The notes beneath the pieces were generated by a model that was given only the letters and a program-made list of their open reading frames with translations, searched no databases and had not been told where the DNA came from. From assembly GCA_943327105.2 (NCBI GenBank), contig CALPVV020000008.1, positions 1-44,456 on the forward strand: a DNA stretch of 44,456 nucleotides. The letters run 5' to 3'. Source of the DNA: Nitrosovibrio sp. Nv4. Lineage in GTDB: Bacteria > Bdellovibrionota > UBA1018 > CAIMNF01. Positions 20,048 to 25,501 of this stretch are shown piece by piece (the stretch's first letter is position 1; the number at the start of each line of letters is the position of its first letter). Both the position numbers and the translations under genes were made by a program.

Positions 20048-20641
20048 TTAATTTCCCCTTAAACCTCTTAATGCATCGATGACCATTTGGCTAATATTTT
20101 CTAATGTTTCCATTACCCCTTTTCCCTGATTTGAAATAGCTTCAAAATACGGCCTTTTTGTGGGGTTAAATGTTTTTTCTAATTCTTGGATACTTGCCGC
20201 ACGAGGTAAATCTCGCTTGTTATATTGAAAAACAATGGGCATTCGGGCCAGATCATAGCCCTGTCTAATCAGTGCCGCCTGAAACTGTTCCCATGCTTCA
20301 ATGTTTTCTTCCATGCGTTCACGCGCAGAATCAACTACAAAAACCACCCCATCGACACCCTTTAAGATGAAATCACGTGATGCTTCATAAAAAATCTGTC
20401 CGGGGATTGAATAGAGGTGAAATCGAGTTTTGTATCCTCTGACTTCACCCACCGATAACGGTAGAAAATCAAAAAAGAGCGTGCGCTCATTCTCAGTACT
20501 CAGGCTGACCAGTTTTCCCGCATGGTCTGAACGCGTATTCTCGTAAATAAACTGAATATTCGTGGTTTTTCCAGATAATCCGGTGCCCACATAAACAATC
20601 TTACAGTTCACTTCCTTGGTAACAGAATTTACGAAGCTCAT
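20048..20641 (-). CDS. mglA: MglA-type Ras-like GTPase
   Basis: Small cytoplasmic GTPase that sets the leading cell pole in Myxococcus gliding and is needed for prey invasion in Bdellovibrio (established for those organisms). The 197-residue product has the P-loop GTGLSGKT (19-26), a switch region ending SIPGQIFYEASRDFILKG, VVFVVDSARERM, and the NKRD guanine-specificity motif. This is the MglA pattern rather than a generic Ras protein. mglB, the GTPase-activating partner, is not next to it. The start overlaps the recR stop by 4 bases (ATGA), so the two are translationally coupled. Confidence 0.94.
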   Translation of the reverse strand: MSFVNSVTKEVNCKIVYVGTGLSGKTTNIQFIYENTRSDHAGKLVSLSTENERTLFFDFLPLSVGEVRGYKTRFHLYSIPGQIFYEASRDFILKGVDGVVFVVDSARERMEENIEAWEQFQAALIRQGYDLARMPIVFQYNKRDLPRAASIQELEKTFNPTKRPYFEAISNQGKGVMETLENISQMVIDALRGLRGN

Positions 20642-21231
20642 TTATACATTTCCGTGCGGTTTTCCAGAGCCTTCACTAGCGTCTGGCGATCAGTGAACTC
20701 GATTGTACCACCAAACGGGATGCCATATGCAACCTGAGAAACCTTGATTCCGATCGGCTTCAGCAATCGTGATAGATACATTCCGGTGGCCTCACCCTCA
20801 ACAGATGGGTTTAGTACGAAAATAATCTCGGTTACATCTTTTGCTTTGAGCCTCATCAGCAATTCCTTGATCTTAATATCATCAGGACCCACTCCATCAA
20901 GAGGCGAAAGAAGACCATGAAGCACATGGTACAAACCTCGATAGGACCCGGTTTTCTCAATCGGAGTCACATCACTCGGCCGCTCCACTACACAAATCTG
21001 TTGATGATCACGCTTTTGATCTTCACAAATCTCGCAGAGTTCATTTTCTGAGAAACTGAAGCATTCACTGCAGTAACGTAACTTTTGCTTTGCATTGACT
21101 AACGCCGATGCCAGTGATTCGGCATAATCAGCGCCCTGGTCAAGAATGAAATAAGCCATGCGAGTTGCCGACTTTTCACCGATACCTGGAAGCTTGGACA
21201 ATTCGAAGATCAATTTTGAAAGTGGGTTCAT
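20638..21231 (-). CDS. recR: Recombination mediator protein RecR
   Basis: Works with RecO and RecF to load RecA on single-stranded gaps. The 197-residue product has the normal size. It has the N-terminal helix-hairpin-helix (LSKLPGIGEKSATRMAYFIL), the four-Cys zinc site (YCSEC, CEIC) and the Toprim domain (ICVVE, VLHGLLSPLDGVGPDDI). It overlaps dnaX and mglA by 4 bases each. The small nucleoid protein gene ybaB, which often lies between dnaX and recR, is absent here. Confidence 0.96.
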   Translation of the reverse strand: MNPLSKLIFELSKLPGIGEKSATRMAYFILDQGADYAESLASALVNAKQKLRYCSECFSFSENELCEICEDQKRDHQQICVVERPSDVTPIEKTGSYRGLYHVLHGLLSPLDGVGPDDIKIKELLMRLKAKDVTEIIFVLNPSVEGEATGMYLSRLLKPIGIKVSQVAYGIPFGGTIEFTDRQTLVKALENRTEMYK

Positions 21232-23090
21232 TTGTCTTTATCACTCAATTCTATATGTAGTTCGCCGCCAAAAAGGGCTTTAGCCTCTTGAACGATGCGA
21301 TTGGAAAGAATGCTATTCATTTTTTCGTCACGAGCCTCTCGCTTAAGACGAATACCCTTCTCGGCCATGCTCTCACCCTGGTTTTTTGAGAAAAATATCT
21401 CAATTGTCGACTTGGTTCCAAAGTGACCTTCGATCAACTGTGCAAACTGATCACGAAAGGCCTTCAACTGAAGCTGTTCGGCTTTTGATTGATCTCTCTC
21501 CCTAAATCCGAGCTTTAGATTGTCGCTGTCTTTTTCAGGAATACTCCATTCGACCACCGACTCAAGAATGAAAGCAAGTACTGGCTTTACTTCAAAACAA
21601 AACTCGATAAAACCTTCCCATGTTTTTGGGCGATTGCTCTTTAATACAGGCGTCGAAACATTCACTTCTGATGATTGCTCAACAGCTCTCTTTTCGCCGA
21701 ACTTCATGCCACCGAACAATTCTTTTGCCGGAGGCTTCTCGGGCGAAACCGGTGTGGATACCTCAACTGATCTAGGAGTACTGACCGATGTCTGCACTAT
21801 CGCTTGCTTTGCAGTTGGCGCCTGATTGGATTGAAAAACCGCTGGTCTTACTTCCTCGGGCGCGCTTGGCCGGGGAGCCCCCCGATCGGAATTCATCGGG
21901 GCTCTTTTTTTGAGATCTTCGTCATCATCAGCGTCTTCGTTCACGCCGTAATCACTCTCATCATCTTGATCTACACTGACTTTGATCAGTCCTTCTGCAA
22001 GAGCGGTCTTCACGACTAAAAGATCGAAAATCAGTTTCGGTTGGGCAGCCTTTGAAAGCATGTCCAAACCATGATGAAACACTTGAAAAATCAGTTCATT
22101 TTCTTCAAGAGGTCGAAGGTTTTGCAATTTTGAAATCTGCTCAAGCTCATCGTCATTGAAGTGGGTTTCGGGCTTTTCAACTCCGACTTGAATCAAGATG
22201 AGTGCGTGGATCATTTCGATCACCATCTTCATCAATACCTTGAGATCGACACCTTGATTGAATGCCTGCTGAGCAATGCCGAGCGCGCCTTTTGCATCAC
22301 GGCCAATCACTTTGCTCACCAGCGCTAAAACAAGTTCAGTCCCAATAAGACCAACACTCTCGCGAACGGCTTGTGCCGTAATCTTCATTCCAGAAAATGA
22401 AATCACCTGATCGAGAATGGAAAGCGCATCACGCATTGAACCCTCAGCGGCTCTCGCGATCAAATTCAAAGCGGCATCTTCCGCTTCAATTTTTTCAGCC
22501 AAAAGCACTTCTTTCATGCGATCGGTAATCTGAGCAACAGTGACGCGCTTGAAATCAAAACGCTGACAGCGCCCCAAAATAGTTTCAGGAATTTTATGAG
22601 ATTCAGTCGTCGCAAAAATGAATACAACATGTTCAGGCGGTTCTTCGAGGGTCTTCAAAAGGGCGTTGAACGCCGCTGTTGAAAGCATGTGAACCTCGTC
22701 GATGATGTAGATCTTGTATTTGCCTGAGCTTGGCAGGAATTTAGCACCTTCGCGAATCTCGCGAACCGAATCAACACCGTTGTTCGATGCTCCGTCGATT
22801 TCCATCACGTTCACGCTATTACCGGCTGCAATTTCAATACAATCGGGACAATGGTCACATGAATAAAGAAGACCATCTTTTTCGACACGATTTTCACAAC
22901 GAAGTGATTTTGAAAAAATACGGGCAATTGAAGTCTTACCAATTCCGCGAGAACCGGAAAAAACGTAGGCCTGATGGGTACGATTCAACTTGATCGCATT
23001 GACCAAGGTCTTTACCACCGAGAGCTGTCCGACGATGTCTGAAAATTGCTTAGGACGGTATTTACGCGCCAGTACGAGATAAGAGCTCAA
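21228..23090 (-). CDS. dnaX: DNA polymerase III subunit gamma/tau
   Basis: Clamp-loader ATPase and replisome organiser. The 620-residue tau-type product begins with a TTG codon with GGGAG 7 bases upstream. Walker A is GSRGIGKT (46-53), the zinc module uses Cys65, Cys78, Cys81 and Cys84, DEVHML is Walker B, and the LGRCQRFDF arginine-finger segment follows. Domains I-III end near residue 370. An acidic linker with an A7 run and a strong hairpin comes next (codons 394-396), then a Pro-rich linker and a tau-like C-terminal domain. The A7-hairpin site could give a shorter gamma-like product. It lies 26 bases after the protease-fusion gene and overlaps recR by ATGA. Confidence 0.95.
   Translation of the reverse strand: MSSYLVLARKYRPKQFSDIVGQLSVVKTLVNAIKLNRTHQAYVFSGSRGIGKTSIARIFSKSLRCENRVEKDGLLYSCDHCPDCIEIAAGNSVNVMEIDGASNNGVDSVREIREGAKFLPSSGKYKIYIIDEVHMLSTAAFNALLKTLEEPPEHVVFIFATTESHKIPETILGRCQRFDFKRVTVAQITDRMKEVLLAEKIEAEDAALNLIARAAEGSMRDALSILDQVISFSGMKITAQAVRESVGLIGTELVLALVSKVIGRDAKGALGIAQQAFNQGVDLKVLMKMVIEMIHALILIQVGVEKPETHFNDDELEQISKLQNLRPLEENELIFQVFHHGLDMLSKAAQPKLIFDLLVVKTALAEGLIKVSVDQDDESDYGVNEDADDDEDLKKRAPMNSDRGAPRPSAPEEVRPAVFQSNQAPTAKQAIVQTSVSTPRSVEVSTPVSPEKPPAKELFGGMKFGEKRAVEQSSEVNVSTPVLKSNRPKTWEGFIEFCFEVKPVLAFILESVVEWSIPEKDSDNLKLGFRERDQSKAEQLQLKAFRDQFAQLIEGHFGTKSTIEIFFSKNQGESMAEKGIRLKREARDEKMNSILSNRIVQEAKALFGGELHIELSDKDK
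21875..21911 (-). promoter_or_regulatory. Candidate slippage/frameshift site in dnaX (A7 plus hairpin)
   Basis: On the coding strand, seven A bases (21911-21905, codons CTC AAA AAA AGA) are followed at once by a 10-pair stem: GAGCCCCGAT (21904-21895) pairs with ATCGGGGGGCTC (21886-21875), leaving two bulged G and an 8-base loop. Loss of one A, or a +1 or -2 shift, gives GAG CCC CGA TGA and ends the protein at about 398 residues. A -1 shift stays open for 44 codons and ends at about 439 residues. Both sizes suit a gamma-type subunit. Read on the + strand, the same hairpin is followed by T7 and looks like an intrinsic terminator. Confidence 0.55.
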
Positions 23091-23116: not shown

Positions 23117-25339
23117 TTATTCAGCAGGGAAATTCAATTTCCAAATCGCCTCAATCGACGCGGTATCCCAGCCTTGTTTTATCAGGAGATTTTTCACATT
23201 TCCAAGTGATGACGCACGTGATCCATTGGTGATTTTCCAAAGATCAGCAAACGTTTTAGAATGAGACTCCGCGTCTTGATGAAGATCGATCAAATCCCAC
23301 AAGAACCCGTTCACGCGCCATTCGTTTGTTGGATGCCCACAAACATCAGCTGGAATATTCTCAACCTTGATCGGAGCACGACGAGGAACCATATATTCAA
23401 AACCTGGATCTTGAGCATTCAAATCAAAATTCAACCAAGATGCATAAAAAGATGCCCATCCTTCTGACAAGGCAATCGCATCTTCATAGCACCGATCAAT
23501 GTAATGTTCGCCACCACCAAAAACACCGATGTTTCCCTGATGGTAAATAGCATGTCCCATTTCATGTGAAACCACATCCCACTGGTGACCAAAAGTAAGG
23601 TGAACCCTTGAGCCGTCGAAATAATCTCCTTTTTCAGGCCACATGAAATCAACACGATACTTCCAAAAATTGAGACCAATCTCATTTCCGATTTTCTTTT
23701 CCGCATTGGTCAATACTTGCCAGATGCCGATGACTTCACCCGCTTCGCTGGTTTCCTCAAAAATAAACTTTTGTGGAACACCACACTTCAATTTGAAGAT
23801 CAAATCAAAGGTCTTTCCATCATTGGATGAACTCACCACTCCATATCGCTGAGTCTCGAGAGCTGTGGTCACAAAGTAATCATTTTTCAGGCAATCGACA
23901 TCTTGAATCATTCCGTTTTGATCTGATTCGTAAGTCTGATAAGGAGAATTTGAACCCGTGTGAAGTTGCGCCCTGAATTTGATTCCTGAAACCGGTGTTT
24001 CAACTCCTTTCACCATTCTCACAAAACGAAGCGAAAGACCTTTTGAAGCAACGCCCGTTTCGATCCGATCTGGATTAATGAATGGATTTCCAGAAAAGTG
24101 TTGCTGATCAACTTCCCCAAATTCATAAAAAGGCTTAACTCCTGCAAGCTCTTCTGATTGCATCAAAATCACTTTTTTCATGGCGGCCAAGACATTCACT
24201 CTTCCACCGGTAATCGTTTTCTCTTGAAGCGATGGAACCGGAGTTACCGTTTCCATCAAAATGCGTTTCAGATCTTGGCCGGTTAGTTTCGGATTCACTG
24301 AAAGCAAGAGCGCGGCAACACCACTCATATGAGATGCGGCCATCGAGGTGCCTGACATTTTTGAATAAGAGCCTTTCAAGACAGTGCTGACGACATTTTC
24401 CCCTGGTGCCGCAAGTTCGACCATTTTTTTTCCATAATTTGAAGACTTTGCAAGATTGTCATTTTCATCCGTGTTCGCTACTGCAATTACGTTTGAAAAG
24501 CGAAGATTAGCAGGGTGACGTGGAGTTTGGTCATTATCACCTTTATTGTTTCCAGCTGAAACCACAAACAGAACACCTTTTGCTTCCGCTTCTCGTACAG
24601 CTTCTTCCAAGGCTTTCGAATATCCGATTCCACCCCAGCTGGCATTAATGACTTTAGCCCCCATTTTTACCGCGTAATGAATTGCCGCAATCGCATCTGA
24701 TCCCCAACCAAGGCCCTTGCTCATCCATCGAACCGGAAGAATCTTGATTCGTGGTGCGATTCCTGAAATTCCAATACCGTTATTCTGGAGTGCCCCAATC
24801 GTTCCGGCTACATGGGTTCCGTGATTAAAATCATCCTGTGCGTTGGCTTCTTCTGAAATCGGGTCAGATTTTGGGTCATCTTCTTTCGCATTGAAGTTCC
24901 AACCTTGAACATCATCAACAAAACCATTGTGATCGTCGTCGATTCCGTTATTTGGAATTTCATTTTTATTGATAAATAGATTCGATTTCAGATCCGTATG
25001 ATTCAAATCAACTCCGGTATCCACTACCGCAACGATTATTTCAGGGTTTGACTGGTTCGTATTTTCTGAAGCAAGCTTCAAAGCCTCTATCACGCCTGAT
25101 TTCTGCAAAGACCACTGCTCACCCAGTTTCGGATCATTGGCAATTTCAAGCTTGGGCTTTTCAATTCTGATCAGTTGGTCCTTTTCAACCCACTCCACAC
25201 TCGGGTCCGCGATAAAGTTTTCAAAATCACCCTTTTGAAGATGCCAGTTTCCGTTTGTTTTCACCATGAATCGAGCCGCATGCGCTTGAGTTGAAATCAC
25301 TGCTGAAAATAGGACTGCGATCACTGAAGTTGTTTTCAT
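23117..25339 (-). CDS. Secreted two-protease fusion: subtilisin-like S8 domain plus HExxH metallopeptidase-like domain
   Basis: A 740-residue exported protein. I start it at the ATG at 25339 (MKTTSVIAVLFSAVISTQAHA, a clear signal peptide); the longer frame begins at TTG and adds nine residues before it. Residues about 22-65 resemble a short S8 propeptide (SVEWVEKDQLIRI). The S8 triad is complete: Asp107 in VVDTGVD, His173 in NHGTHVAGT, Ser332 in SGTSMAA, with the oxyanion Asn264 in SAGNN. After a linker with beta-rich segments (about 400-560), residues 592-596 read HEMGH, and Glu626 follows in SEGWASF 29 residues later, a gluzincin-type zinc site. Both catalytic centres look intact. It may share a transcript with dnaX. 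Confidence 0.85.
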   Translation of the reverse strand: MKTTSVIAVLFSAVISTQAHAARFMVKTNGNWHLQKGDFENFIADPSVEWVEKDQLIRIEKPKLEIANDPKLGEQWSLQKSGVIEALKLASENTNQSNPEIIVAVVDTGVDLNHTDLKSNLFINKNEIPNNGIDDDHNGFVDDVQGWNFNAKEDDPKSDPISEEANAQDDFNHGTHVAGTIGALQNNGIGISGIAPRIKILPVRWMSKGLGWGSDAIAAIHYAVKMGAKVINASWGGIGYSKALEEAVREAEAKGVLFVVSAGNNKGDNDQTPRHPANLRFSNVIAVANTDENDNLAKSSNYGKKMVELAAPGENVVSTVLKGSYSKMSGTSMAASHMSGVAALLLSVNPKLTGQDLKRILMETVTPVPSLQEKTITGGRVNVLAAMKKVILMQSEELAGVKPFYEFGEVDQQHFSGNPFINPDRIETGVASKGLSLRFVRMVKGVETPVSGIKFRAQLHTGSNSPYQTYESDQNGMIQDVDCLKNDYFVTTALETQRYGVVSSSNDGKTFDLIFKLKCGVPQKFIFEETSEAGEVIGIWQVLTNAEKKIGNEIGLNFWKYRVDFMWPEKGDYFDGSRVHLTFGHQWDVVSHEMGHAIYHQGNIGVFGGGEHYIDRCYEDAIALSEGWASFYASWLNFDLNAQDPGFEYMVPRRAPIKVENIPADVCGHPTNEWRVNGFLWDLIDLHQDAESHSKTFADLWKITNGSRASSLGNVKNLLIKQGWDTASIEAIWKLNFPAE

Positions 25340-25501
25340 ACAAAAATCATATCGATTCCGATTCAAATGAAAATCAAAATTTGAATGAAACCGGCTTTTA
25401 CGGCTTTAACATTAAAGATTTTTCAAAGGGTCTTGTTTTTAAAGGTTTTTTAACAACATAGTCTTTGCTCATGGTTCACGATTGCGCTACCAACAGGACC
25501 T
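25340..25501. promoter_or_regulatory. Divergent control region of two secreted-enzyme units
   Basis: 162 non-coding bases between the protease fusion (-) and the three-gene operon (+). It is T-rich near 25420-25450 and must hold promoters for both directions. I see no hexamer pair that I would trust. AGGACC sits just before the ATG at 25502 as a weak ribosome binding site. Confidence 0.5.

Follow-up and report, generated by a model that had tools for sequence, protein, structure and literature searches.

A candidate RF2-like +1 frameshift site in the dnaX linker of a bacterial genus

The dnaX gene in the window, i.e., the whole stretch of 44,456 nucleotides analyzed here, carries a short motif laid out like the frameshift site of prfB, the gene for RF2, and we put at roughly 70% the probability that RF2-like +1 frameshifting at this site makes a gamma-type DnaX subunit of about 413 residues. 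This assessment comes from comparing dnaX within the genus, the family, and the phylum. A gamma-type short DnaX arising from the stretch past domain III had already been proposed in the first-pass annotation, which ascribed it to an A7 run with a hairpin; conservation supports the broad idea but not the A7/hairpin device.

The dnaX linker and its putative +1 site

The gene product matched TIGR02397 (dnaX_nterm; 433 bits, with a cut-off of 250) and NF004046 (455.7 bits, with a cut-off of 400), and the clamp-loader ATPase, the lid, and domain III of DnaX were all found by the Pfam and TIGR02397/NF004046 matches (Table 1). Both the A7 run and the stem lie in the linker, past the domain III match that ends at residue 368. 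Read in frame, the 3' arm of the stem is CGG GGG GCT CCC CGG, a Shine-Dalgarno (SD)-like hexamer followed by one spacer codon, a slippery CCC-C, and a rare arginine codon, and the arm extends by one base into the slippery codon. The -1 frame has no stop right after the site, the nearest one being 33 codons from CCC and 43 from the A7 run.

Table 1. Features of the dnaX region (positions in the window; dnaX codons are numbered from the TTG at 23090 as codon 1)
Feature	Position	Strand	Basis
dnaX	21228..23090	minus	profile matches TIGR02397 and NF004046; Pfam clamp-loader domains
Domain III (PF12169), residues 237-368; linker starts after it	21987..22382	minus	Pfam; coordinates by arithmetic from the residue range
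A7 run	21905-21911	minus	sequence; ordinary in own genome; 0/11 congeners at the same place
10-pair stem-loop, 8-base loop, two bulged G	21875-21904 (G21904-C21875)	minus	folding
SD-like hexamer CGG GGG, codons 403-404	21879..21884	minus	CGG GGG or CGG AGG in 7/12 genus species
3-nt spacer, codon GCT 405	21876..21878	minus	spacing equal to prfB consensus
Slippery CCC-C: P-site CCC 406 and first base of codon 407	21872..21875	minus	sequence
Rare Arg codon CGG 407, A-site codon at the shift	21870..21872	minus	sequence, codon usage
+1-frame stop TAA, end of predicted 413-residue gamma (tail GQARPRK)	21848..21850	minus	three-frame reading
recR-like gene (presumed); ATG overlaps the dnaX stop	20638..21231	minus	ORF list

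To judge how ordinary such features are in the genome itself, we used 344 ORFs chosen mechanically from 400 kb of it, together with codon (synonymous) shuffles. CGG, GGG, and CCC make up 6.4%, 9.8%, and 13.9% of their synonyms in these ORFs, and the in-frame motif occurs in them once, in dnaX. The strict DNA pattern CGGRGGNNNCCCC has three matches in the whole G000 genome, one of them in dnaX, and a single match in the whole G005 genome, also in dnaX; it is common in the GC-rich congeners, with 22 matches in G002 versus 17 for the reversed pattern.

The proposed shift would take place while codon 406, CCC, occupies the P site and the rare codon 407, CGG, waits in the A site. The upstream CGGGGG would pair with the anti-Shine-Dalgarno end of the 16S rRNA at a close, prfB-like spacing, the pairing would loosen the E site, and the tRNA-Pro would re-pair one base forward, on the overlapping CCC. 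Reading would then go on in the +1 frame (GGC CAA GCG CGC CCG AGG AAG TAA) and reach a stop seven codons later, to give a 413-residue gamma made up of domains I to III and the first part of the linker and ending in the tail GQARPRK. Only a share of the ribosomes would shift, while the unshifted ones would make the 620-residue tau. We infer in this model that the shift occurs, and likewise its rate, the tRNA taking part, and the role of gamma. In this species, the stem, which reaches one base into the slippery codon, may act as an additional duplex on the upstream side of the shift site. A section of PMC6321510 describes an internal SD adjoining the E site as promoting +1 and lowering -1 shifting, counts hungry A-site codons and stems upstream among the other modulators of frameshifting, and states that upstream stems can mimic an SD duplex. 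The A site here holds a sense codon and not the slow TGAC of prfB, so the efficiency of the +1 shift could be low.

The dnaX stop overlaps the ATG of the following ORF, which we take to be recR-like, at 21228-21231. As a consequence of this overlap, ribosomes stopping early at the gamma stop would miss the junction of the two genes. Upstream of dnaX, the minus strand carries at 23117-25366 an ORF of 749 residues that by eye resembles a secreted subtilisin-type protease; its protease-like part is joined to a C-terminal part with a zinc-protease-like HEMGH motif (by eye).

Conservation of the motif in the genus and of prfB in the family

The genus set comprised 12 genomes (G000 to G011), in each of which dnaX was read (without its 5' end in L128), and with the outgroup genus (L013) it formed the family set of 13 dnaX. 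An in-frame xGG RGG NNN (CCCC or CTTC) was found at the start of the linker in 7 of the 12 genus dnaX, the slippery quartet being CCCC in six carriers and CTTC in one and the A-site codon being CGG in six and CAA in one. The nearest congener, L003, which is 90% identical to the window dnaX over the core, keeps the 3' arm of the stem as GAT CGG GGG GCG CCC CGG CC. In the aligned linkers, the motif reads CGG AGG GCT CCC CGG in L007, L008, and L128, CGG GGG TTG CCC CAA in L005, and CGG GGG TCA CTT CGG in L009. Since L007, L008, and L128 are close relatives, the independent cases are fewer than seven.

In all seven carriers a +1 stop follows the motif within 4 to 8 codons (7, 6, 4, 6, 5, 8, and 6 codons). 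Synonymous redraws put the probability of meeting a +1 stop within 8 codons at 0.09 to 0.79 per gene, with a product of 2.9e-5 that is rough, the species being related; taken singly, the stops of L009, L005, and L003 are weak evidence (chance of 0.79, 0.50, and 0.48, respectively). The -1 stop lies 7 to 79 codons from the slippery codon in the carriers, and in L009 it is nearer (7 codons) than the +1 stop (8 codons).

The motif was found in none of the 134 sampled dnaX outside the family, in none of 80 named dnaX, and not in the dnaX of the outgroup genus. Widening the slip set added a single match, which falls at codon 500 of L156 and not in the linker. Under looser RF2-like criteria, the linkers of dnaX from outside the family gave 3 sites versus 4.1 +/- 1.9 expected, i.e., no sign of +1 signals in the rest of the sample; within the family the looser scan returned the seven sites and one at codon 414 of L008, which was taken as a chance match, its +1 stop being 49 codons off. 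Five of the 12 genus species lack the strict motif, L010 to L012 wholly; L004 and L006 have weakened-looking forms of it (GAA AGG TTA CCC AGG, with a +1 stop after 9 codons, and CGG AGG GCG GCC AGG, with a +1 stop after 3 codons and a -1 stop after 2). Placed on a poorly resolved tree, presence of the motif takes 3 changes, and 67 of 500 shuffles of the label were as low, so the clustering is not significant; one gain and two losses would explain the three changes. When the 40 nt before the slippery codon were folded, L002, L007, and L009 gave a stem ending there (that of L007 refolds otherwise in a longer context) and L003 and L005 did not, so that an upstream stem is not a general feature of the carriers.

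Two readings would leave the frame unchanged or the motif without function. An SD-like stretch might do no more than pause ribosomes after domain III, e.g., for folding; the hexamer is indeed kept in 7 of the 12 genus species, and elongation pausing by internal SD pairing is suggested in a section of PMC6321510, but pausing leaves unexplained both why a slippery CCC-C or CTT-C stands precisely 3 nt away and why +1 stops follow so closely in every carrier, and we consider it improbable as the whole account. Equally improbable in our view is that the DNA pattern is the chance product of a protein motif (RGAPRP or RRAPRP) or of a GC-rich patch. The linker is rich in proline and arginine, and the motif codes for R-x-x-P-R in five of the seven carriers; against this, the nucleotide pattern persists in L009 and L005 even though the encoded residues differ (SL and LP in place of AP), and the patch in L003 reaches 78% GC within a gene of 40% GC. 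In synonymous shuffles that kept the protein and the codons of each gene (n = 2000), the motif never appeared in more than 3 of the 12 genes (mean, 0.078), and it arose in 0.05 to 2.4% of the shuffles per carrier gene, which likewise speaks against an origin in the protein sequence.

RF2-like +1 shifting, the reading that we favor, has a counterpart in prfB of the same genus. A prfB over the cut-off was found in 10 of the 13 family genomes (9 of the 12 in the genus) and was not found in the draft assemblies G000, G005, and G008. Its +1 site is present in all nine genus genomes with prfB and in the outgroup genus (L287 to L296, 10/10): the zero frame is short, has a start codon, and ends in ...xGA GGT TCN CTT TGA C, and RF2 continues in the +1 frame. 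Given this site in all 10 prfB found, SD-driven +1 shifting very likely operates in the lineage. The SD-like part of the family prfB is xGAGGT, not GGGGG. Pattern RGGGGGNNNCTTTGAC matched only in G009 and G001 of the 13 genomes, and these matches were rejected as prfB, the three-frame translations not being prfB-like and the prfB of both genomes being located elsewhere, with xGAGGT.

The A7 run, its hairpin, and A runs in other dnaX linkers

The sequence features listed in the first-pass annotation were reproduced. Codons 393-396 read CTC AAA AAA AGA, folding of positions -45 to +25 around the CCC codon gave the stem with its 10 pairs, 8-base loop, and two bulged G, and at the A7 run the +1 frame meets TGA after 3 codons and the -1 frame TAG after 43. 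When a different 66-nt stretch was folded, a 7-pair version and a second small hairpin were favored. The first base of the CCC codon lies 20 nt downstream of the first base of the +1 TGA.

The device that had been read from these features, slippage or a -1 shift at A7 with a downstream hairpin, did not survive comparison: the run occurs at the same place in none of 11 congeners, and the conservation check of run and stem in relatives found the nearest congener, L003, to have neither the run there nor the 5' arm of the stem. The A7 pattern itself matches 2408 times when both strands of the 2.31-Mb genome are searched and overlaps within longer runs are counted, and a sense A7 or longer run is present in 136 of the 344 own ORFs. 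Sense A7 in these ORFs was seen 161 times versus 135.9 +/- 8.8 expected from codon shuffles and is not avoided, while A8 was seen 32 times versus 43.6 and A9 or longer 7 times versus 26.3 expected from synonymous shuffles; A7 thus seems to be tolerated in the genome, and runs from 8 or 9 upward to be avoided. Compared with other genic sequence of the genome, the stem is unusually stable, equal folding being found in 0 of 1376 random genic 39-mers and at 2 of 200 A7-or-longer sites (the dnaX site and another that lies where its ORF ends). Its strength is not above its own base composition (z = 0.08).

The phylum sample comprised 155 loci, or 147 distinct dnaX after near-copies were dropped, with family f16 left out; the f15 and f18 loci are mostly the best 30 of 59 and the best 30 of 47 genomes searched and are not random samples. 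Sense runs of A9 or longer were found 35 times in the linkers versus 14.2 +/- 2.8 in 300 synonymous shuffles, none of which reached 35, whereas A7 (17 versus 15.8 expected) and A8 (11 versus 11.9) were not above chance. Runs of A9 or longer were not enriched in the dnaX core (0 versus 0.9) or in the C-terminal part (14 versus 15.7). The linker runs, A9 to A12 in length, belong to f15 (21 of 30; L171 and part of L232 to L259), f18 (8 of 33; L136, L203, L207, L210, L213, L214, L222, and L226), f9 (3 of 3; L151, L152, and L190), f7 (2 of 2; L133 and L135), and f20 (1 of 1; L145), the f15 and f18 counts referring mostly to best-scoring loci. None was found in the other 15 sampled families, which include 51 sampled dnaX of the order of the window. 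Both shifted frames stop within 15 codons in 32 of the 35 runs versus 56% at random codons of the same genes. The A9 to A12 linker runs of several families are likely Thermus-type slippage sites, and the slippage idea fits these relatives better than it fits the dnaX of the window.

RNA polymerase slippage on A7, or a ribosomal shift there, yielding a DnaX shortened to about 398 or 439 residues, is in our judgment very unlikely. What speaks for it is the presence of A7 and stem together, the +1 stop 3 codons downstream, the enrichment of A9 or longer linker runs in other families of the phylum sample, and an in-frame A AAA AAA at codon 446 in the linker of L003, with stops within 3 (-1) and 2 (+1) codons; the last is the best sign found for such a reading and may have arisen by chance or mark a second site. 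Set against these are the absence of the run from its place in 11 of 11 congeners, the lack of A7 enrichment in linkers, and its tolerance in the ORFs of the genome, and on the genus comparison, the own-genome control, and the phylum-wide linker test A7 was ruled out as a programmed site. The A7 site is not a heptamer suited to a -1 tandem slip, and no A AAA AAG is found in the dnaX linker here; the downstream stem was rejected as a -1 stimulator too, since it follows the run almost without a spacer and the run offers no slippery heptamer. The stem lies 3' of the run and would not yet be transcribed when the polymerase crosses it, so it should have no effect on slippage there. Together, A7 and stem are not supported as a frameshift or slippage device. 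The same features read in antisense, i.e., on the plus strand at 21880-21911, look terminator-like, with no evident plus-strand gene before them. An intrinsic terminator of antisense transcripts, formed by the stem and T7, is less probable still. The terminator-like match (hairpin and then T7, 21880-21901 on the plus strand) is there, but 10 such matches occur in 5.9 kb versus 5.7 +/- 2.4 expected, the plus-strand ORFs that run up to it lie antisense to dnaX, and the nearest relative, L003, lacks the feature.

Some other A-rich linker sites may be recorded here. Runs of A9 to A10 occur at codons 377 to 426 in 7 of the 80 named dnaX, which judging by their record titles come from several phyla (L057, L081, L084, L098, L099, L102, and L111). 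The E. coli-like A AAA AAG was found in the linkers of the order of the window in 1 of 31 f2 dnaX (L126); in frame, it stands at codon 377 of L126, with a -1 stop after 4 codons, and at codon 390 of L143, with a -1 stop after 39.

Relation to known recoding systems

Like prfB, the dnaX site combines an SD-like purine hexamer, one spacer codon, and a slippery P-site codon followed by a pyrimidine with a one-base forward shift, and in both genes the hexamer ends 3 nt before the slippery codon (CGGGGG GCT CCC in dnaX); the prfB consensus according to PMC12421855 is AGGGGG and, three nucleotides further on, CTTT. The dnaX of L009 even has TCA CTT, as do several prfB of the family. The differences are equally clear. 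The slippery quartet is CTTT in prfB and CCCC or CTTC, pyrimidine quartets too, in the dnaX carriers; the A site holds TGA and then C in prfB but a rare sense CGG (CAA in L005) in dnaX; and the shift restores full length in prfB, whereas in dnaX it would shorten the product, with no feedback by RF2 to be expected. The dnaX site thus would work like a prfB site without being one.

With the -1 frameshift of E. coli dnaX, the proposed shift shares the gene, the place after domain III, an internal SD-like stimulator, and a gamma product. E. coli, however, shifts in the opposite direction, on A AAA AAG with an SD-like element upstream and a stem downstream; the heptamer is present in the linker of 0 of 13 family dnaX, no stem stands at the right downstream spacing here, and the SD-like spacing is 3 nt, compared with the 8 to 11 nt given for E. 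coli dnaX in a section of PMC6321510. Slippage on A9 in Thermus thermophilus affects the same gene at the same place, and other families of the phylum sample have A9 to A12; the run here, in contrast, is A7, A9 or longer is found in the linker of 0 of 13 family dnaX, and the run is not conserved in the genus. Thermus-type sites have near stops in both frames, as described for T. thermophilus dnaX in section 21 of PMC5009743, and the A7 here has only one (3 versus 43 codons). According to the same section, Caulobacter crescentus obtains gamma by proteolysis of DnaX, without -1 frameshifting or slippage; a protease thus makes the short form there, in place of the +1 shift proposed here.

The routes to a short DnaX described in the portions concerned of PMC5009743, PMC1088944, PMC3711429, PMC6321510, and PMC12421855 are -1 shifting, its reversed form, slippage, and proteolysis, and a +1 shift in dnaX was not found in the open-licence literature searched. 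Baranov et al. (PMC1088944, section 5) note in that section that a truncated product of slippage is hard to judge by comparison, and since the +1 tail of dnaX is short, their caution applies to the +1 site as well.

The +1 site is probably a new route to a known short form of DnaX. To our knowledge, prfB is nearly the sole bacterial housekeeping gene for which a programmed +1 shift is known. A true +1 site in dnaX, where the A-site codon is a sense codon, would mean that other genes can recruit the SD-spaced +1 device, and a further route to gamma would join the -1 shifting, slippage, and proteolysis treated in section 21 of PMC5009743. We regard it as fairly probable that the short DnaX is made in one phylum by two or more unrelated recoding routes sited at one and the same place in dnaX, an RF2-like +1 shift in the genus and slippage on A9 to A12 in other families. 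If both routes are true, the short form would be kept while the device making it is repeatedly replaced, and if gamma is indeed kept while the device changes between families, the disputed importance of the short subunit would become testable by comparison.
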